Positions 1,379 through 22,248 of a DNA stretch of 64,000 nucleotides are shown piece after piece; position 1 is the first letter of the stretch, and every line of letters begins with the position of its first letter. The stretch lies in the NCBI GenBank assembly GCA_030651695.1, contig JAUSCD010000015.1, positions 186,001 to 250,000 on the forward strand. Direction: 5' to 3'. Position numbers and translations under genes: made by a program. The notes under the pieces were generated by a model. The model made no database searches. It was not told where the DNA came from and saw only the letters and a list, made by a program, of their open reading frames with translations. This stretch comes from Pseudohongiella sp. Lineage in GTDB: Bacteria > Pseudomonadota > Gammaproteobacteria > Pseudomonadales > Pseudohongiellaceae.

Positions 1379-1393
1379 TTTTTGATTGGGGCC

Positions 1394-1482
1394 GCAGAGC
1401 GGTGTATGGCGTCGCGCCGACCGGCCGCATCATTTGATAAGCGCGGCCTGATTGGTCGACATGACGCCATACACCGCTCTGC
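1394..1482. repeat. Inverted repeat A/A' with imperfect inner stem
   Basis: The arms at 1394-1413 and 1463-1482 are perfect 20-base reverse complements (GCAGAGCGGTGTATGGCGTC and its complement). The enclosed bases continue the pairing as CGACC/GGTCG and GGCCGC/GCGGCC with a small bulge, so the whole 89 bases can fold into one long hairpin. It begins 15 bases after the receptor stop codon. There is no clear run of T after it, so it is not a textbook Rho-independent terminator. Confidence 0.85.
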
Positions 1483-1653
1483 TCACTCCGAATCAGGGTT
1501 GGTGGTGGGAGAAAAGAAAAGGAAAGGCAAAGGGGGGCGGAGGGCATACACCCTCCGTCCCCCTTTGCCTTTCCTTTTCTTTTACGTCGCGTCAGCCGAT
1601 GTGAGAGCACCGGGCGCTGCTTTGTGTGGCAGACCAATCAGGTCGCGCTTATC
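1436..1653. repeat. Inverted repeat B/B', interleaved with repeat A
   Basis: Bases 1436-1457 and 1632-1653 are reverse complements over 22 bases with one difference (again a G-T opposition). The left arm lies inside the loop side of hairpin A/A', whereas the right arm lies beyond hairpin C/C'. Arm order is therefore A B A' C C' B', so A and B pairings compete or form a pseudoknot. The rest of the 348-base gene gap up to 1726 holds no convincing ORF. Confidence 0.8.
1512..1583. repeat. Long purine/pyrimidine inverted repeat C/C' (33-base arms)
   Basis: Arms at 1512-1544 and 1551-1583 pair over 33 bases with one non-Watson-Crick position (G opposite T, a G-U pair in RNA of + sense) around the six-base loop CATACA. 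The left arm is almost pure purine (A-rich then G-rich), the right arm almost pure pyrimidine. Such a structure would act as a very stable hairpin in transcripts from either side and can extrude as a cruciform. It lies midway between the convergent TonB receptor and tex genes. Confidence 0.9.
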
Positions 1654-1726
1654 CTGAGTGCCCCCAGCCGAAAAAGCGCGCGCACTGTTCGAATCCCGAG
1701 CGGTGCGGCCACGTCACCCAAGCAAC

Positions 1727-4054
1727 CTACTTTTTGTTTTTAAGAGCCTGCTCAAACAAAGCCGCCATCGTGCCCGTCGACCGTTTATTCTGCGCTGCCG
1801 CATCAAAATCTTTCTTGCGCTTGGCCGACTCCTGCGTCGTCGGTGCCGGACGAGCGCCTTTAGGAGCACCTTCGGTTGGCAACGGATCAGACAGACGCAT
1901 CGTCAACGCAATACGTTTACGCTCCCGGTCAACTTCGAGCACTTTGACTTTCACAATCTGACCCGCTTTCACAACTTCATGCGGATCTTTGACAAATTTT
2001 TCTGACAACGCAGAAATGTGAACCAGACCATCCTGATGCACACCAATGTCGACAAACGCACCAAAGTTGGTGACGTTAGTAACTGTGCCTTCCAGAGTCA
2101 TTCCCGGCTCAAGATCTTTGATCTCTTCAACGCCCTCTTTCAGCTCAGCGGTGACAAACTCACCACGAGGATCTCGGCCTGGCTTTTCCAGTTCGCGCAG
2201 AATGTCCTGCACCGTGGGTAAACCGTATTTCTCAGTAACGTAGTCCTTGGCATTCAGGCCGCGCAGGAAACTGCCATCGCCGATTAATGATTTCACCGTG
2301 CGACCATTGCGGCGCGCAATGTCTTCCACCAAGGCGTACGATTCCGGGTGCACCGATGAAGCATCAAGAGGATTCTCACTATCCGCCACACGCAAAAAAC
2401 CGGCAGCTAATTCAAACGATTTTTCGCCAAAACGTGGTACTTTTTTCAGATCGGCACGGCTGCGGAACTGACCGTTTTTGTCTCTGAACTCCAGAATATT
2501 ATTAACCAGTGTCTGTGTTAAACCTGACACTCGTTTCAGCAAAGGTGCTGACGCGGTATTGATGTCCACACCCACTGCGTTTACGCAATCCTCAACCACA
2601 GCGTCCAGCGAACGTGACAACTTCACCTGGCTGACATCATGCTGATACTGACCTACACCGATGGATTTTGGTTCAATTTTTACCAATTCAGCCAACGGGT
2701 CTTGCAGCCGGCGGGCAATAGAAACTGCACCACGGATAGTTACGTCCAGATCCGGTAATTCCTGCGATGCAAACTCAGATGCAGAATAAATGGACGCGCC
2801 CGCCTCGTTCACAATCACTTTCTTGAGTTTAAATTGCGGGAACGCTTTGCAGAACTGCGCCACAAAACTGTCCGTCTCACGCGATGCTGTACCGTTACCA
2901 ATACTGACCAGTTGAGCATTGTGCTTTTCGCAGAGCTTTTTCAGAACCAGTGCAGCTTCTTCAATTTTATTCTGCGGCGCATTCGGAAAGATAGCGTTGT
3001 AGTCCAGCACTTTGCCGGTCTCGTCAATCACGGCGACTTTCACGCCGGTACGCAGACCAGGGTCCAGACCGATAGTGACTTTTTTACCGGCCGGCGCCGC
3101 CAGCAGCAGATCTTTGATGTTACGCGCAAACACATCGATCGCATCAGTTTCTGCCTGCTCGCGCAACTCAGTAAGGAAATCTGTTTGCAAATGCGTATGT
3201 ACCTTCACACGCCAGGTCCAGCGCACCACATCCTGTAGCCAGCTGTCTGCCGCCCTGCCCTGATCTTTGATTCCCCAGTGGTTGGCAATCATCACTTCGC
3301 AGGCATGTTTTAACGGCGGATTCGCCGGATCAACAGGGATATCAATTTTTAAATTCAGAATGCTTTCGTTGCGCGCGCGGAACAGTGCCATGGTGCGGTG
3401 TGACGGGATTTTTGTGACTGCTTCGGAGAACTCAAAGTAGTCGCGATACTTGGCGCCTTCCTGCGCTTTCCCTTCCACCAGTTCGGACATCAGGTGTGCG
3501 CTGTTCCAGAAATAGTCACGCAATCGTCCCAATAAAGTTGCATCTTCACCGAACTGCTCTATGAGAATATATCTTGCACCTTCCATCGCGGCTTTGACAT
3601 CAGCCACACCTGATTCAGCGTTAACGTAGCGTGCAGCTTCCTGTTCCGGATTTAAGGCAGGGTCCGCATACAGTGCATCCGCCAGCGGCTGCAGGCCCGC
3701 TTCACGGGCGATTTGCGCGCGTGTACGGCGCTTCTGCTTATATGGCAGATACAGATCTTCCAGCGTGGTTTTAGTCCCGGCGGCACGCAGCTGTGCTTCC
3801 AGTTCGGGCGTCAACTTCTGTTGCTCGGCAATACTCTTGATAATCGCGTCACGGCGGTCATCCAGCTCACGTATATAAAGCAAACGTTCCTGCAACTTGC
3901 GCAGCTGGGTGTCGTCCAACCCTCCAGTAACTTCCTTGCGGTAACGTGCAATAAAGGGAACCGTGGCACCATCGTCCAACATTGCTACGGTGGCAGCAAC
4001 CTGTTCCGGGCGGGCGGCAATTTCTTCGGCAATCTGAGCAAACATCAGTGACAT
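1727..4054 (-). CDS. tex: Tex, transcription accessory RNA-binding protein
   Basis: The 775-residue product has the normal Tex length and order: helical N-terminal domain with [10 protein letters not shown] near residue 33, a YqgF/RNase H-like domain with [14 protein letters not shown] near residue 327, tandem helix-hairpin-helix elements, and a C-terminal S1 RNA-binding domain ([29 protein letters not shown] near 660-690). Tex is a cytoplasmic nucleic-acid-binding protein that influences transcription in many bacteria; its exact biochemical role is not settled. The tail is basic (KRKKDF, ALKNKK). The start lies nine bases after the trmJ stop, and the GGA of its leader overlaps the end of trmJ, so the two are probably translated from one mRNA. 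Confidence 0.93.
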
Positions 4055-7433: not shown

Positions 7434-7988
7434 ATGGATGCATTGACCGCGCTACAGACCCGGGTATCGGTATCCCGGGTGCGCGAACCCGGACCGGACA
7501 AACAGACTCTGGAACAGATCATCAAAGCCGGACTCAGGACGGCCGATCATGGATTGTTAAGACCCTGGCGCTTTCTGACTGTGCAGGGCGAGTCCCTGCA
7601 CAGGCTGGCAGAGCTTTTTGTTGAGGCCACGCTGGCCGATGCCCCGGACACCTCAGCGGCTGAACTGAACAGCGCACGCAGCAAAGCCCTGCGAGCTCCT
7701 TTAATTCTGATAGGCATTGCCTCACCCAAAGAACACCCCAAAGTCCCGGTCATCGAGCAGCACCTGTCAGCAGGTGGCGCTTTGCAGAATATGCTCACTG
7801 CGGCGCACGCACTTGATGTCGGAGCAATCTGGCGCACGGGGCCCATGGCCGCTCACCCGGTTGTACTTCAGGGGCTCGGGCTGGCGGACCATGAAAGCAT
7901 CATTGGATTTATTTACATGGGCACCGTTGACGGCCCAAAGCGAGAACTGCGCGACGAACCCGTCAGCAACTTTGTACAGGAATGGTAA
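7434..7988 (+). CDS. Nitroreductase family protein (YdjA-like)
   Basis: The 184-residue protein matches the short YdjA type of FMN-dependent nitroreductase. It begins MDALTALQTRVSVSRVREPGPD, has the LRTADHGLLRPWRFLTVQG FMN-phosphate region near 34-53 and GGALQNMLTAAHALDVGAIWRTG near 111-133, and ends with the DEPVSNFVQEW tail. Members are cytoplasmic NAD(P)H oxidoreductases with mostly unknown physiological substrates. The stop codon abuts the start codon of the next gene, so the two are translationally coupled. Confidence 0.9.
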   Translation: MDALTALQTRVSVSRVREPGPDKQTLEQIIKAGLRTADHGLLRPWRFLTVQGESLHRLAELFVEATLADAPDTSAAELNSARSKALRAPLILIGIASPKEHPKVPVIEQHLSAGGALQNMLTAAHALDVGAIWRTGPMAAHPVVLQGLGLADHESIIGFIYMGTVDGPKRELRDEPVSNFVQEW

Positions 7989-8600
7989 ATGCCCGACACA
8001 GAACTGAAAACAATAAAAATAATGCGGCATACAGCCTTTAACACGCCTTTGTTAACACCCCTGCTGAGACTGATCTCCTCAGCCATTCTCGCACTACTCG
8101 GCTGGCGTGCCGTCGGAAAACCGATTACCGACCAGCGTTTTGTCTTGATTGGTGCTCCGCACACCAGCAACTGGGATTTCCCGGTGATGCTGATGGTGGT
8201 GCTGAAACTGAGGTTAAAACTGCACTGGATGGGGAAAAACACGTTGTTCATGTTTCCCTTTGGCGGATTTATGCGCTGGTTGGGCGGTATACCTATAGAT
8301 CGCAGCCAACATCACGGTGTTGTGGATCAGGTGGTTGGACAATATCACAGCAATCCGCAACTGGTTGTGCTGGTACCTCCCGAAGGCACTCGCAAACGGG
8401 TAAAGGAATGGAAAACCGGTTTCTACCACATTGCCAATAATGCCGGTGTTCCGATCCTGATGGGGTATCTTGATGCGGGAAAAAAAGAAGCCGGTCTTGC
8501 CGACTTCTTTTTCCCCACCGGAAATGCCGAGGACGATATCCGTGCCATCAGGGCATTCTATTCCGACAAAACAGGTCTCAGACCAGAGAATGGCGGCTGA
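7989..8600 (+). CDS. Lysophospholipid/glycerol-phosphate acyltransferase family protein
   Basis: The 203-residue protein has the PlsC-type motifs: the catalytic HX4D in APHTSNWDF (near residue 55), GGIPIDR (near 98), and EGTRK (near 132). A hydrophobic segment precedes the HX4D box, consistent with peripheral membrane attachment. It probably transfers an acyl group to a lysophospholipid or related alcohol. The substrate is not predictable, and PlsC itself is usually longer. The ATG follows the preceding stop directly; an internal ATG 11 codons later (MRHTAFN) is an alternative. It converges on the tetR-type gene six bases downstream. Confidence 0.85.
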   Translation: MPDTELKTIKIMRHTAFNTPLLTPLLRLISSAILALLGWRAVGKPITDQRFVLIGAPHTSNWDFPVMLMVVLKLRLKLHWMGKNTLFMFPFGGFMRWLGGIPIDRSQHHGVVDQVVGQYHSNPQLVVLVPPEGTRKRVKEWKTGFYHIANNAGVPILMGYLDAGKKEAGLADFFFPTGNAEDDIRAIRAFYSDKTGLRPENGG

Positions 8601-8606
8601 TCGACA

Positions 8607-9368
8607 CTACGGCTGATAGGCCAGAGTGGCATACAGATTATCCAGAATGAACCCTGCATAGTCTGCAATGTCAGTCTGCAAGCTCTGGAACTTCCAGCGC
8701 TTGAGGTACCACTGCTGCAGCATTGCGGTAGTGGCTGCTGCAAGCAGTGCCGTGTCGCCCGCATACTTGAATACACCCGCGTTGATTCCTTCCTTGAAAA
8801 TATCCTGCAAGCGCTGGTCGAAACGGAACTCCATCTGCATGGCTTCCTCACGCTGTTCCTTGTCCAGACCTTTGGCTTCAATAAAGCAGAAGTAGTACCA
8901 CTGATGCATGATGTCATTCATGTACAGGTCAGCGTGAATCATGGCTTTCAGGCGATGATGGGGATCCAGGTTGTGCGAAGCCAGATCAGCCATCACATCG
9001 TCGATTGTCTGACGTACTACGGCTTCAATTGCAGATGCCAGATCACTCTTGCTGCCAATGTAGGCATATAAACCGCCCATACTGATTTCGGTTTCCCGGC
9101 TCAGATCGCGCAGACTCATGGAATGGAAACCCTGGCTATTGGCCAGACGGAACGTACAGGTAAAAATCTTTTGCAGATTCTTCAGCGCAGTTTTTCCGTT
9201 TTTGATCTGCATACGCTGGTGATGAACGGAAAAAACCCGCTCCCAGAGCGGTTCTCCCTCAAGCACCCAGACGCGACGAAAAGCCTCAATGCTGGTATCG
9301 TGAGGCCACGAGTCCAACACTTCCGGTAATGATTCAACAGTTTCAGACTCCACTTTTGCAGTGTCCAT
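8607..9368 (-). CDS. TetR/AcrR family transcriptional regulator
   Basis: The helix-turn-helix lies unusually far in, at about residues 65-115 (ANSQGFHSMSLRDLSRETEISMGGLYAYIGSKSDL), after a 55-60 residue acidic extension not usual in the family. The C-terminal half is an all-helical ligand-binding domain of the kind seen in fatty-acid or acyl-CoA responsive TetR proteins. GGAG lies nine bases before the ATG, supporting this start and hence the extension. Targets are unknown. A ten-base palindrome (TGTGATCACA) lies 40 bases upstream and may be its own operator. Confidence 0.85.
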   Translation of the reverse strand: MDTAKVESETVESLPEVLDSWPHDTSIEAFRRVWVLEGEPLWERVFSVHHQRMQIKNGKTALKNLQKIFTCTFRLANSQGFHSMSLRDLSRETEISMGGLYAYIGSKSDLASAIEAVVRQTIDDVMADLASHNLDPHHRLKAMIHADLYMNDIMHQWYYFCFIEAKGLDKEQREEAMQMEFRFDQRLQDIFKEGINAGVFKYAGDTALLAAATTAMLQQWYLKRWKFQSLQTDIADYAGFILDNLYATLAYQP

Positions 9369-9407
9369 CAGCTATGTCTCCTTCGCTCAGCGGCCTCAGC
9401 TGTGTAT

Positions 9408-9417
9408 TGTGATCACA
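9408..9417. promoter_or_regulatory. Palindrome upstream of the TetR-type gene (candidate operator)
   Basis: TGTGATCACA is a perfect ten-base palindrome 40 bases upstream of the regulator start. It may be an autoregulatory site. A CRP site is less likely, since that needs a six-base spacer between TGTGA and TCACA. The rest of the 192-base gap to the TSUP gene shows nothing recognisable. Confidence 0.3.
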
Positions 9418-9560
9418 GACTTCCCTGCCGCAACTTCAAGCTTGTTTATTATTATCGAAACCACAATGCAACTGTTGCCAACCAAGCCCACGCGAACTGC
9501 ATTGCGGATCAGGAAAGTGAGTTTACCCTATGAATCCTCACAGCAACAGCCACCCGTCTG

Positions 9561-10268
9561 CTACATCAACGCAGAAATCACAGCGTAAAGACCTGATCCG
9601 GCGCATAGAACCAGCGAGCCTGCACGAATGCTGCGGGCAGAAAGTCTGTGCATGGTTTTTCTGGCGATCCAGAATCCGGCCAACGTTGCAGGTAACAACG
9701 GCAGCGAAAGTTTTATGTGATACCAGCCGAAATGACCGATGGGAGCTAATATCACCAAAGATATCAGACAACTGACCACAAAAAACGCTGCCAGATTGGC
9801 GCGTATCAATGCCAGATCCTGATGTTGCCAAAGCAGCGCCATCGGCGGCCCGCCAATCGACGTGCTGGTCCCCATAAAGCCGGATAAAAACCCGGCAGCC
9901 ATCATACGATTATGAGTCGGATGCCAGCGCAAAGAGGTCAAACTGACACCCACAGCAAACAGAACGGACAGTCCAATCCACAATGCCAGCGAGTCCTTGT
10001 CAATCCACAACAACAAGCCAGCACCAGCGAGTGAACCGGGAATACGCCCCACGACAGCTGCCTGCAGCCCCTTCAAAGACACTCCTTCACGGAACACCCA
10101 GGTATTGATAAGCGATAGAGCCAATGCACACACTGTCACCGGCGCTGGCACATAATCAGCATTAACAAAGAACAGCACGGGCGCTGCAATCACCGCCAGA
10201 CCAAACCCCGTCGCGGTCTGCACAAACGCACCAACAAACACCAGCGCTATTGCAATCAACATATCCAT
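9561..10268 (-). CDS. TSUP (TauE/SafE) family membrane permease
   Basis: The 235-residue protein is almost entirely hydrophobic, with about seven to eight membrane segments. It has the glycine-rich repeats of the TSUP family: GAFVQTATGFGLAVIAAPVL near 13-32 and GFLSGFMGTSTSIGGPPMALL near 127-147. Members move sulfur-containing or organic anions across the inner membrane. The substrate is unknown. It is divergent from the radical SAM gene and shares with it a 100-base control region containing a perfect 10+10 dyad. Confidence 0.87.
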   Translation of the reverse strand: MDMLIAIALVFVGAFVQTATGFGLAVIAAPVLFFVNADYVPAPVTVCALALSLINTWVFREGVSLKGLQAAVVGRIPGSLAGAGLLLWIDKDSLALWIGLSVLFAVGVSLTSLRWHPTHNRMMAAGFLSGFMGTSTSIGGPPMALLWQHQDLALIRANLAAFFVVSCLISLVILAPIGHFGWYHIKLSLPLLPATLAGFWIARKTMHRLSARSIRAGSLVLCAGSGLYAVISALM

Positions 10269-10302
10269 CTAATGGTTCTCACCGGTGCCGCCGGGCATCA
10301 AA

Positions 10303-10325
10303 AGTGCGCGTATTCTACGCGCACT
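10303..10325. promoter_or_regulatory. Perfect 23-bp dyad between divergent TSUP and radical SAM genes
   Basis: AGTGCGCGTA and TACGCGCACT are exact reverse complements separated by TTC. The dyad sits 35 bases upstream of the TSUP start and just upstream of the putative -35 of the radical SAM gene. This placement suits an operator for a dimeric regulator controlling both genes. No regulator is encoded beside it. Confidence 0.5.
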
Positions 10326-10328
10326 GCT

Positions 10329-10358
10329 GTGCCACTGCCATGCACCGGCTGATATACT
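10329..10358 (+). promoter_or_regulatory. Candidate promoter of the radical SAM gene (leaderless?)
   Basis: GTGCCA (10329-10334) and TATACT (10353-10358) are separated by 18 bases and resemble sigma-70 -35 and -10 elements. The ATG at 10367 lies only eight bases after the -10 box, so transcription would begin at or one to two bases before it and the mRNA would be leaderless or nearly so. No ribosome-binding site is visible before this ATG. Confidence 0.4.
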
Positions 10359-10366
10359 CCCGCCCC

Positions 10367-11257
10367 ATGTACCCAATGTCCTATATAGAACCGGTTTTTC
10401 GCCCTCCCAGTGAATGGAAGTCCCTGATATTGCAGGTGACCAATGGTTGCTCGTGGAATAAGTGTACATTCTGCGACATGTACACTGACCCACAGAAACG
10501 TTTCCAGCCACAGGATTTGGCGGCTATCGAAACGCAACTGCGCCAGATTGTGGAAGCCGGATACCCGGTCTACCGCGTGTTCCTTGCAGACGGCGATGCC
10601 ATGACACTGTCAACACGCCGCCTCCATGAGATCATGGACATGCTCAACCGCTGGCTGCCGCACAAACCCAGAGTCAGCGCCTATTGTCTGCCACGCAACC
10701 TGCGCAACAAAAGTGTGGAAGATCTGCGTGAACTGCGCGAAAAAGGTTTGAGTCTGTTGTATGTCGGATGTGAAACCGGCGACAACGAACTGCTGACACT
10801 GATCAGCAAAGGCGAAAGTTTTGACAGCTCGCTGGAGGCATTGGAAAAAATGCATGCTGCCGGCATCAAAAGCTCTGTCATGGTCCTCAATGGACTCGGC
10901 GGTCCGGATCTCAGCGAACGCCATGCGCTGGAAAGTGCGCGCCTGATGAATGCCGCGCAACCGCATTACCTGTCGACCCTGGTGGTGGAATTTCCTAAAG
11001 GCACACAACGTTTTAATGATCCGTTTAAAGGCCAGTGGCGCAAGCTGGGCAAGCTTGAACTTTTTCGCGAGATGGAGACCCTCCTGTCCGCTCTGGAACT
11101 GAACAGCACCATTTTCCGCAGCGACCACGCCTCCAATTATCTGGTGTTGAAAGGTGTGCTTGGCAAAGACAAACAGGCTCTGCTGGATACTGTGCGGACC
11201 GCCATCAATCAGCCGGGCCGTATTCCGCTGCGCGAAGAGTGGCAACGCGGGTTGTGA
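10367..11257 (+). CDS. Radical SAM protein
   Basis: The 296-residue protein opens MYPMSYIEPVFRPPSEWKSL and carries the iron-sulfur motif NGCSWNKCTFCDMY near residues 24-37, with CX4CX2C spacing. This spacing is typical of a family of small radical SAM proteins of unknown substrate rather than the common CX3CX2C. A GCETGDNELL segment near 129 and conserved glycines follow the usual barrel order. It would cleave S-adenosylmethionine reductively to start radical chemistry. Three in-frame ATGs (10340, 10367, 10376) compete; 10367 fits the promoter best. An anaerobic-type enzyme is plausible but not shown. Confidence 0.85.
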   Translation: MYPMSYIEPVFRPPSEWKSLILQVTNGCSWNKCTFCDMYTDPQKRFQPQDLAAIETQLRQIVEAGYPVYRVFLADGDAMTLSTRRLHEIMDMLNRWLPHKPRVSAYCLPRNLRNKSVEDLRELREKGLSLLYVGCETGDNELLTLISKGESFDSSLEALEKMHAAGIKSSVMVLNGLGGPDLSERHALESARLMNAAQPHYLSTLVVEFPKGTQRFNDPFKGQWRKLGKLELFREMETLLSALELNSTIFRSDHASNYLVLKGVLGKDKQALLDTVRTAINQPGRIPLREEWQRGL

Positions 11258-11270
11258 TCGCTCTGCCTGC

Positions 11271-11462
11271 GGCTGATTGTGATTGACAGCAATTTGATCA
11301 GTGGTTAATCGGCGGGGCCGGGTGGTGAGCTGATCACACTCGCTTGAACCCTTCCCTGGGGCGCTCCACGGTCGCCATCCCTGGCGACCGAGGGTGTTCT
11401 CAGTTCACCACCCGGCCCCGCCGATTTCAGGGTGCAGATTCAGCTATCAATCACAATCAGCC
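11271..11462. repeat. Nested giant inverted repeat filling a convergent gene junction
   Basis: Three nested arm pairs share one centre. The outer arms 11271-11286 and 11447-11462 are perfect over 16 bases (GGCTGATTGTGATTGA). The middle arms 11309-11333 and 11400-11424 pair over 25 bases with one G-T opposition. The inner hairpin CGGTCGCCA-TCCC-TGGCGACCG at 11369-11390 is perfect over nine. The structure takes up nearly the whole 210-base space between the radical SAM stop (11257) and the DUF502 stop (11468). It could form a long hairpin in RNA from either strand or a cruciform in DNA. No T-run marks it as a standard terminator. Confidence 0.9.
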
Positions 11463-11467
11463 TGTCT

Positions 11468-12085
11468 TCATTTAGTCTTGCCGGGACTTTTCCCCTTCTG
11501 CTTCTGGCCCAGTCCCGCGCTCATAATCAGCCGCAGCGCGTCACCCGCATTCATATCCACCGGCTCAACATTCGCCTTCGGCAGCACCACCATGTAACCG
11601 CCTACCTGATAACTCATCGGCAGATATACGGCAATTTCATCGTCAGAAATCATCTGCCCCAGCCGCGAATCCTTGTCGTCGCCTTGTTTGGTGACAACAC
11701 CCAGCAGTTTGTAGGGGGAATCCGGCATCCTTACCCAGACTACCGACTGTCCGCTGAAATCCTGCCCGCCGATCAGGTCTATGAAATCCTTGATGGTGTT
11801 GTATACGTAATTAAGAACGGGTATCCGATCCAGAAGACGGTGACTGTACTGCCACAACGCGCCGATCATTTTCACCCTGAAACTGATCCCGACAATCAGT
11901 GCCAGCAGTAAAAAACTGACGATAGCCATCCCCGGCAGATACCAGGCTTGCGGCAGCACCAGCTCCCAGAGTGGCTTCAGCCAACCCTCCACTGTTGCCA
12001 CCAGCCAGATAAGCAATTGAATAGAAAGAACTATCGGCAACAGCAAGGACAAACCGGTCAGCAGATCACGGGTCAGTTTTTTCAC
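11468..12085 (-). CDS. DUF502 family integral membrane protein
   Basis: The product (205 aa) begins VKKLTRDLLTGLSLLLPIVLSIQLLIWLV, the usual opening of DUF502 proteins. It has two N-terminal membrane helices (about 9-32 and 48-72), followed by a soluble domain containing VWVRMPDSPYKLLGVVTKQG and a hydrophobic PADA-like end. I prefer the GTG at 12085, with GGAG six bases upstream, over a GTG six codons earlier. Function is unknown for the family. It converges with the radical SAM gene across the nested inverted repeat. Confidence 0.85.
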   Translation of the reverse strand: MKKLTRDLLTGLSLLLPIVLSIQLLIWLVATVEGWLKPLWELVLPQAWYLPGMAIVSFLLLALIVGISFRVKMIGALWQYSHRLLDRIPVLNYVYNTIKDFIDLIGGQDFSGQSVVWVRMPDSPYKLLGVVTKQGDDKDSRLGQMISDDEIAVYLPMSYQVGGYMVVLPKANVEPVDMNAGDALRLIMSAGLGQKQKGKSPGKTK

Positions 12086-21953: not shown

Positions 21954-22073
21954 CTAGTGATACGTAGTAAACTCGAGCACGTTGATAGAATACAGCTGAG
22001 TTGCGAGTTGCTGCTGACGATGAAAGCCGTTAAAACTGCGGTGGTGAAATGTACAACAGCGGAGGTCGGATGA

Positions 22074-22172
22074 CAGCAGGGTTAAACGATCGGAGCCTCG
22101 GCGGACAGGAAGTCCGCCGCGGAGCCCCACAGGGACGTGCTTGTGGGCGTCTCCGAGCGGTTAACCCTGCTG
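22074..22172. repeat. Branched inverted repeat between convergent genes
   Basis: Outer arms 22074-22095 and 22151-22172 are reverse complements in 20 of 22 positions. They enclose the perfect hairpin CGGCGGAC-AGGAA-GTCCGCCG (22099-22119) and a second small stem, CCCAC (22126-22130) with GTGGG (22143-22147). The element lies in the 295-base gap between the proline-rich protein gene and the end of pstB. A run of eight T on the pstB strand directly follows its stop codon but lacks a good stem. Confidence 0.8.
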
Positions 22173-22248
22173 GCAGCCGGCCGCTAAACGAAGCTCCAAC
22201 AACAGACTACCCGCTACGCTGGCCGCCGATTATTGGCACAAAAAAAAC

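Follow-up and report, generated by a model that had tools for sequence, protein, structure and literature searches.

How can three long inverted repeats lie interleaved, in the order A B A' C C' B', within a single spacer? This question is raised by the focal spacer of the window, i.e., the whole 64,000-nt stretch of Pseudohongiella sp. DNA analysed here. The spacer is convergent and separates a TonB receptor gene, which ends at 1378, from tex, which ends at 1727; Pfam supports both genes, in agreement with the first-pass annotation. That annotation had also placed the three arm pairs in this order, and an inverted-repeat search located them at the same positions, where they rank first, fourth, and fifth among 16 listed pairs in the 64-kb window. 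The A/A' arms (1394-1422/1454-1482) are 29 nt long with a 90% match, the B/B' arms (1436-1457/1632-1653) are 22 nt with 95%, and the C/C' arms (1512-1544/1551-1583) are 33 nt with 97%. The 20-nt A arms described earlier are the perfect outer part of the 29-nt arms. All differences within arms had been described as G opposite T, which holds for the B and C arms, with one such position each, and for the shorter A arms, but not for the 29-nt A arms, which carry one G opposite T and two C opposite A.

The two facing copies in the focal spacer

The B 22-mer occurs twice in the window, compared with 0.00 occurrences expected from shuffles. With the spacer as query, 42 matches were obtained in the source genome, and the B core with its surroundings accounts for many of these. 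The genome-wide search that the first-pass annotation had proposed revealed 26 matches to the B core with three or fewer mismatches, including the two focal ones, and none for the reversed control. Among the three identities that it had offered, the miniature repeat element was thus the one borne out, the 22-mer being the core of a dispersed family. The focal spacer holds two decayed, oppositely oriented copies of a family of dispersed giant extragenic palindromes, with a terminator-like hairpin between them. Each copy follows its own gene, copy 1 the TonB receptor gene and copy 2 tex; therefore, the interleaved order of the arms is a by-product of two facing copies. The parts of the spacer are listed in Table 1.

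Table 1. Parts of the focal spacer, in coordinates of the window
Feature	Position	Strand	Remark
Element copy 1, TonB-receptor side, decayed	1391..1490	+	outer stem and core retained; ~95 nt of inner stem and tip deleted
A, 5' arm of the outer stem P1 of copy 1	1394..1413	+	same place as the P1 5' arm in intact copies
Left core strand GACCGGCCGCATC of copy 1	1419..1431	+	near-invariant across 23 full copies
4-nt deletion scar, former site of P2 and tip hairpin	1432..1435	+	~95-100 nt there in intact copies
B, right core strand of copy 1, with extrahelical bulges AAGC and TGATT	1436..1457	+	26 genome matches with three or fewer mismatches
A', 3' arm of the outer stem P1 of copy 1	1463..1482	+	inverted-repeat search
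Unpaired 3' tail TCACTCCG of copy 1	1483..1490	+	partly conserved among copies
C/C' hairpin: A-rich side, GC-rich stem, T-rich side	1512..1583		terminator-like; outside the repeat family
Element copy 2, tex side, decayed	1601..1712	-	alignment with the intact tex-side copies of G044, G154, and G155
B', right core strand of copy 2	1632..1653	-	exact core match
Remnant, 3' half of the tip hairpin of copy 2	1676..1700	-	alignment with intact copies

Copy 1 begins 12 nt past the TonB-receptor stop codon. It was matched by the covariance model CM R1 at 1419-1457 with 39.2 bits (E = 2.3e-8 in the 64-kb window), and 92 of the 131 model positions are absent. A tail like TCACTCCG remains in a relative at the site of another, lost copy. 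Copy 2 keeps the 3' half with B'; its left core and 5' inner arm are gone, as is most of the 5' outer arm. Its CM R1 score of 16.8 bits is below that of the unrelated C hairpin (21.5 bits). The model gives some score to any strong hairpin, and used alone it would miss this copy. The C/C' hairpin has only short matches elsewhere in the genome (37-60 nt, 76-85%). A GC-rich hairpin followed by a T tract, it has the form of an intrinsic terminator, and the terminator scan reported it on the + strand only, with 2 overlapping sites compared with 0.9 expected. A T-rich side follows the stem on both strands, and the stem on the - strand has one A-C mismatch.

Architecture of the element

Aligned copies reveal an element of ~190 nt, which consists of an outer arm, GACCGGCCGCATC, an inner arm, the tip, a second inner arm, GATAAGCGCGGCCTGATTGGTC, a second outer arm, and a short tail. 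An intact copy is one long hairpin of ~70 pairs, in which an outer stem P1 of ~25-30 bp leads to the conserved internal core, followed by P2, an inner stem of ~17-20 bp, and by an irregular tip, which is also conserved. The three bulges, one of 4 nt and two of 5 nt, are all situated in the 3' strand; extrahelical bases are conserved on one side of a hairpin whose sequence is otherwise variable. Nine intact copies with short flanks fold into near-perfect hairpins of -131 to -152.5 kcal/mol, with a mean of about -145 kcal/mol.

In the source genome, CM R1 found 23 full copies and 3 fragments, one of which is focal copy 1; the 45 rows of the output comprise these and 19 reverse readings of the same palindromes. 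The 23 full copies were aligned with MAFFT (alignment A1, not structure-fitted), on which RNAalifold gives 69 pairs, 41 of them with two-sided changes, and 96.5% of the cells pair in the consensus structure. The covariation score is 0.430, compared with 0.118 (sd 0.008) after shuffling (0 of 500 shuffles reach it) and 0.05-0.09 when the structure is slid along the alignment; the structure was taken from the same alignment and is somewhat favoured by it, and the shuffles do not keep the relatedness of the copies.

Pairing at the level of DNA or RNA

The stems were compared in 140 distinct copies, which come from sampled loci (5 outside the genus) and are a part of all the copies in the 15 genomes of the genus. 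These stems are 93% Watson-Crick, a value raised by the register filter, which counted P1 at 17 or more of 24 and P2 at 12 or more of 17 Watson-Crick positions and retained 119 and 117 of the 140 copies, respectively. Read in the sense of the gene, the odd pairs are 159 A-C/C-A against 37 G-T/T-G in a looser count, and 88 against 29 when only isolated mismatches are taken. A-C is the more frequent in 61 copies and G-T in 16. By genome, 15 of 19 lean towards A-C, three lean towards G-T (G150, G151, and G155, with small counts), and one shows neither. The opposite bias would be expected if the gene-strand RNA were the folded molecule, and the earlier proposal that RNA pairing is preserved on the + strand does not agree with this excess of A-C across the family. 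The bias indicates either that the opposite strand is folded or that mutation around the element is strand-biased, and it could be mutational rather than selective. Two causes of such a bias were considered and set aside. Copies lie in both orientations, including the 8 facing pairs of the source genome, so the bias should not track the direction of replication. A cause linked to transcription was set aside because isolated mismatches favour A-C over G-T in tandem contexts (18 to 8) as they do in convergent ones (42 to 16).

Orthologous copies were compared in 40 pairs, hand-chosen among the matches listed and sharing copies with one another; a set of 132 automatic pairs includes false orthologues caused by repeat-to-repeat hits. 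The helix filter passed 51 of 80 helices, those with at least 85% of positions paired in both copies and at least half of the pairs unchanged, and more diverged helices were dropped because replacement could not be excluded. In the 51 helices, 867 pairs are unchanged, whereas 150 show two-sided and 66 one-sided change (the latter 34 A-C/C-A, 19 G-T/T-G, and 13 other). Transversions make up 81 of the 150 two-sided changes, and for these there is no one-step route through G-U. As the copies are related, the counts represent non-independent events, and some of the two-sided changes could be mimicked by gene conversion of whole elements.

For RNA genes, template switching has been proposed as the source of stem changes that alter several bases on both sides and pass through no wobble intermediate (PMC8794818). 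The element stems likewise show multi-base two-sided change without wobble intermediates, which would fit template switching as proposed for RNA hairpins. That work concerns RNA genes, whereas here we infer the process for a dispersed extragenic palindrome. The pair types suggest that template switching keeps a hairpin of DNA perfect, rather than that selection acts on an RNA of the + strand. The reading that we prefer, to which we give a probability of roughly 0.6, is that the focal spacer holds two decayed facing copies of a palindrome family that acts as DNA and whose stems are kept by template switching.

Distribution among genomes

All 15 genomes of the genus match CM R1, with 5 to 32 matches each, figures that are match counts and may include reverse readings of palindromes. 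In the family, 21 of 59 genomes match, comprising all 12 of the genus and 9 of the 47 others; the figures are 10 of 145 for the order and 6 of 321 for the class, and the source genome is included in every one of these counts. Searches of more than 40 genomes used stricter filters, by which weak matches are lost. The tip pattern was found in 3 of the 398 genomes of a phylum sample, the source genome included; the tip motif is presumably one that recurs in many proteobacterial genomes. An exact core pattern was found in 17 stretches of named records, from Pseudohongiella species and other Gammaproteobacteria. In more distant genomes, the tip persists, the bulges do so less often, and the stems look unrelated. 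Thus, the family is multicopy in every genome of the genus examined, common to orthologous places between species, patchy elsewhere, and situated mostly just past stop codons.

Among the 11 loci from outside the order or from the viral collection, 6 have AAAGTARCCAAA beside the element or the tip, and with a pattern looser by one letter only those 6 match among all 255 loci. In L172, L220, L248, L250, L252, and L253, AAAGTARCCAAA precedes the distant copies or tip motifs, and a GGGTTCCCTGCG-like stretch stands before some of them; among five distant loci displayed, the excerpt of L250 was taken at a misplaced position and contains no element. The stretches like AAAGTARCCAAA and GGGTTCCCTGCG suggest a wider gammaproteobacterial superfamily. 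In L220, an IMG/VR contig listed as viral, the tip motif lies at 9040-9081 and 10234-10274, in opposite orientation and ~1.2 kb apart. Carriage by plasmids or phages was rejected, since BLAST gave no match among plasmids with three queries and none among phages with one.

Local clusters of copies were also observed. In the one-contig genome G156 (contig C1), 16 of 31 element matches fall within 0.28 Mb, at 1.82-2.10 Mb. Calculated for 17 stretches, the GC skew takes the opposite sign somewhere between 1.09 and 1.82 Mb, the value at 1.96 Mb being the one exception; this puts the cluster on the presumed terminus side. In L101 (G110, contig C26), positions 7483-10961 hold five copies in 3.5 kb, and stretches of flank and element are repeated among them.

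Mobility and comparison with known palindromes

The clearest case of presence and absence is a copy found in G000 and G152 and absent from a Pseudohongiella metagenome bin, in which the flanks match those of G152 at 98-99% identity. The bin retains the tail CTCACTCCGG, and the missing copy represents either a loss or an assembly fault; a clean empty-to-filled insertion was not found. Direct repeats are not in excess in the flanks: the longest word shared by the two flanks has a mean of 4.18 nt, compared with 4.05 nt after shuffling, in 62 copies of one lineage group whose insertion points are placed less exactly than to the base. Many copies occupy sites that are orthologous between species, so movement of the element is not frequent.

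Y1_Tnp, the one enzyme family searched for a mobilising protein, has a gene in 32 of 38 chosen genomes and in 15 of 15 of the genus. Outside the genus, it is present in 5 of 7 genomes that bear the element and in 12 of 16 without an element match, and the 14 loci (12 places) around Y1_Tnp genes contain no element at E <= 0.01. Y1_Tnp, the sole enzyme family compared, does not track the element, and no mobilising protein was found with it. The gene in L240 at 2925-3896 (G000, contig C17) encodes a protein of 323 aa that combines a Y1_Tnp domain with a helix-turn-helix of DnaA type at the C terminus, and it looks like a domesticated RAYT-type gene. Open reading frames of 303-323 aa are also present at the Y1_Tnp match in G044, G110, G152, and G156.

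In kind, the element is an extragenic palindromic repeat such as YPAL and ERIC; its copies are dispersed, multicopy, intergenic, and 100-200 bp long, with a long stem-loop, as in extragenic palindromes and MITE-like elements. YPAL (RU-2) and ERIC (RU-1) are dispersed repeats of ~130-170 bp, mostly intergenic and hairpin-forming, and YPAL is not A+T-rich, is without TA ends, and has targets adjoining dyad symmetry, according to PMC2229807 and PMC2267715. Like them, the element is dispersed, mostly intergenic, and folds into a hairpin. Unlike them as described, it has ~70 pairs per copy, and more in two folded copies of G156. Its stems covary between copies, while the tip and the three same-side bulges are near constant, and its copies are mostly sense-oriented past stop codons without a signal of target-site duplication. 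Length, near-constant bulges and tip with free stems, the sense place past stop codons, and the strand bias of mismatches appear to be new. No description of the family was found among the open-access papers listed by the literature searches.

Two further systems are similar in logic. Integron attC sites are situated at the 3' ends of cassette genes and carry boxes with the consensus RYYYAAC and GTTRRRY. Their hairpins are imperfect, and it is the bottom strand that is recognised, through extrahelical bases on one side (PMC3053210). The element also has extrahelical bases conserved on one side of an imperfect hairpin, but it stands in facing pairs at common chromosomal sites, whereas attC stands in cassette arrays, and both boxes of the consensus are present at the hairpin ends in 0 of 138 copies; identity with attC was therefore rejected. 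In the case of the REP sequences of E. coli, a conserved bulge is needed for activity and one folded single strand is recognised (PMC8266576). REP/BIME units of TnpA-REP (RAYT) share with the element the extragenic palindrome, the conserved bulge, and the frequent pairing of copies. However, REPs are 20-50 nt long, preceded by a tetranucleotide, most often GTAG, and present in hundreds per genome, whereas the element is ~190 nt or more, has 5-32 matches per genome, and has no linked Y1_Tnp gene. With feet defined by a simple rule, GTAG is present in the foot regions of 17 (top) and 14 (bottom) of 138 copies and CGTC in 14 (top) and 14 (bottom), which gives no tag rule for either. REP/RAYT identity was rejected on the missing tag rule and the unlinked Y1_Tnp. 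The element resembles attC and REP in logic and fails the defining features of both.

A substrate for recombination or transposition by a single-strand DNA enzyme, REP/RAYT-like or attC-like and still mobile today, would agree with the long hairpin of variable stems, the conserved tip and same-side bulges, the tolerance of G-T specifically on the opposite strand, and the varying match number and patchy distribution. We nevertheless regard current mobility of this kind as unlikely, in view of the missing attC boxes and tag rule, the lack of a signal of target-site duplication in the flanks, the unlinked Y1_Tnp, and the many copies at orthologous sites.

Position at gene ends

For the position of the elements, 135 copies were counted, 5 of the 140 being left out with a gene missing on one side; genes were called with a simple purpose-made caller rather than a standard annotator, and the terminator finder was likewise purpose-made. 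A same-sense gene precedes 109 of the 135 copies at a median of 46 nt, and 99 of the 109 lie within 143 nt. Among these 109, 80 also face a convergent gene. Divergent spacers hold 8 of the 135 copies, compared with 93 of 329 spacers longer than 60 nt in the same loci. In the source genome, 8 pairs of copies face each other within 1.2 kb, the focal pair included. Facing copies were also considered as the ends of a transposon with cargo, which was rejected on the genes between them in the three pairs checked (flavodoxin-like, SfLAP, and DUF3626). The position bias could reflect a selected function at 3' ends instead of tolerance.

Such a function is the essence of a 3'-UTR RNA element, transcribed with the upstream gene and ending or stabilising its mRNA, with RNA pairing under selection. 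The sense position after genes, the avoidance of divergent spacers, and the very stable folds of the nine intact copies are all consistent with it, and in 90 of 101 element-bearing ends the search for terminators gave no further one ahead of the element. However, A-C mismatches exceed G-U three- to four-fold on the transcribed strand, and over half of the two-sided changes between orthologues are transversions without a one-step path through G-U. Furthermore, where the gap between stop codon and element is at least 60 nt, a terminator already stands before the element in 8 of 33 ends, compared with 6 of 181 ends without an element. No Rfam family was matched either, with 0 matches at the gathering score in 7 loci and only sub-threshold ones in one locus (E = 0.18 and 0.66). 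We consider selection for such an RNA to be improbable. Replacement of terminators by the element is likewise a weak explanation, because terminators are rare at both kinds of 3' end (11 of 101 with the element and 6 of 181 without, by the purpose-made finder).

Long hairpins occur in other spacers as well. The convergent spacer at 11271-11462 of the window, between a radical-SAM gene and a DUF502 gene, is filled by a 192-nt nested hairpin, which lacks the family core and is single-copy in the genome; the region 11240-11490 folds with -143 kcal/mol. A third convergent spacer (22064-22182) holds a 119-nt hairpin with 32-nt arms. Among element-free spacers, sampled from stretches of the source genome and four loci of G044 and G110, 30 or more nested pairs are present in 4 of 13 convergent, 17 of 68 tandem, and 20 of 34 divergent ones, and the folding energy per base is strongest in the convergent ones.

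The same spacer in relatives

We searched for tex in the 59 genomes of the family and obtained matches in all of them, some to shared domains only. The four closest species (G044, G152, G154, and G155, with tex 91-93% identical) have intact copies in the spacer between tex and the TonB receptor gene. G154 and G155 hold an intact facing pair, G044 one intact copy on the tex side, and G152 one on the TonB side. The 620 nt 3' of tex gave no core in G149, G156, G145, G146, G150, or G110 (tex 75-82%), some of which show an ordinary terminator-like hairpin there by eye. The tex-side copies of G044, G154, and G155 have GGTCGC opposite GCGACC, and the TonB-side copies have GTGGCC paired with GGCCAC. 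The partner strand has changed too, so that each lineage carries a compensated change, of which the G/A difference between B and B' forms a part. The first-pass annotation had named homologous spacers with neither conserved pairing nor copies, together with no RNA signal, as the outcome that would speak against it; in these four relatives, intact copies are present, and the stems of their family covary.

These relatives also bear on the first impression that A/A' and B/B' are exclusive helices or a pseudoknot in one RNA. The three arm pairs exist and could pair, but B and B' are the cores of two separate, opposite copies, B finds its partner inside its own copy in the intact copies examined, and G044 and G152 hold one of the two copies only, which refutes a conserved fold of the whole spacer. 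A single structured RNA built from A/A', B/B', and C/C' was therefore rejected and is very improbable. Chance or a plain transcription terminator can be practically discounted for A, B, and the 26 dispersed core matches, which it does not explain, and holds for C/C' alone, which fits an intrinsic terminator on the + strand; in some of the more distant relatives, hairpins 3' of tex also resemble plain terminators by eye.

A model for the element and its significance

Returning to the family as DNA with stems kept by template switching, the element would work as DNA and not as gene-strand RNA. A hairpin-binding protein probably recognises the constant tip, bulges, and core, and does so on the strand opposite the gene, where the odd pairs take the form G-T. 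In the variable stems, perfect pairing is probably maintained by template switching, with one arm copied onto the other. Spread as non-autonomous palindromes is probable, as is survival mainly at gene ends, where the elements would be harmless and may add a block to convergent transcription. At the focal spacer, where the pair has decayed, the C hairpin probably terminates transcription now.

A bolder proposal, put forward as a speculation that is more probably wrong than right by a wide measure, is that the element represents a third class of folded single-strand DNA substrate beside attC and the REP/IS200 ends. This would be a hairpin of ~200-300 nt, read opposite the gene strand via its tip and three same-side bulges by a putative recombinase or hairpin-binding protein; its stems would be free because template switching rewrites one arm from the other, and the family would extend well beyond one gammaproteobacterial order and mark the 3' ends of genes.

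A functional RNA is usually regarded as strongly supported when its stems covary; here, the strand bias of mismatches and the pair types favour a process at the level of DNA, which makes the element a good natural case in which to set template switching against RNA selection. It also offers a defined hairpin as bait for a protein that reads it. In Pseudohongiella and its relatives, the repeat family could confuse the annotation of gene 3' ends.
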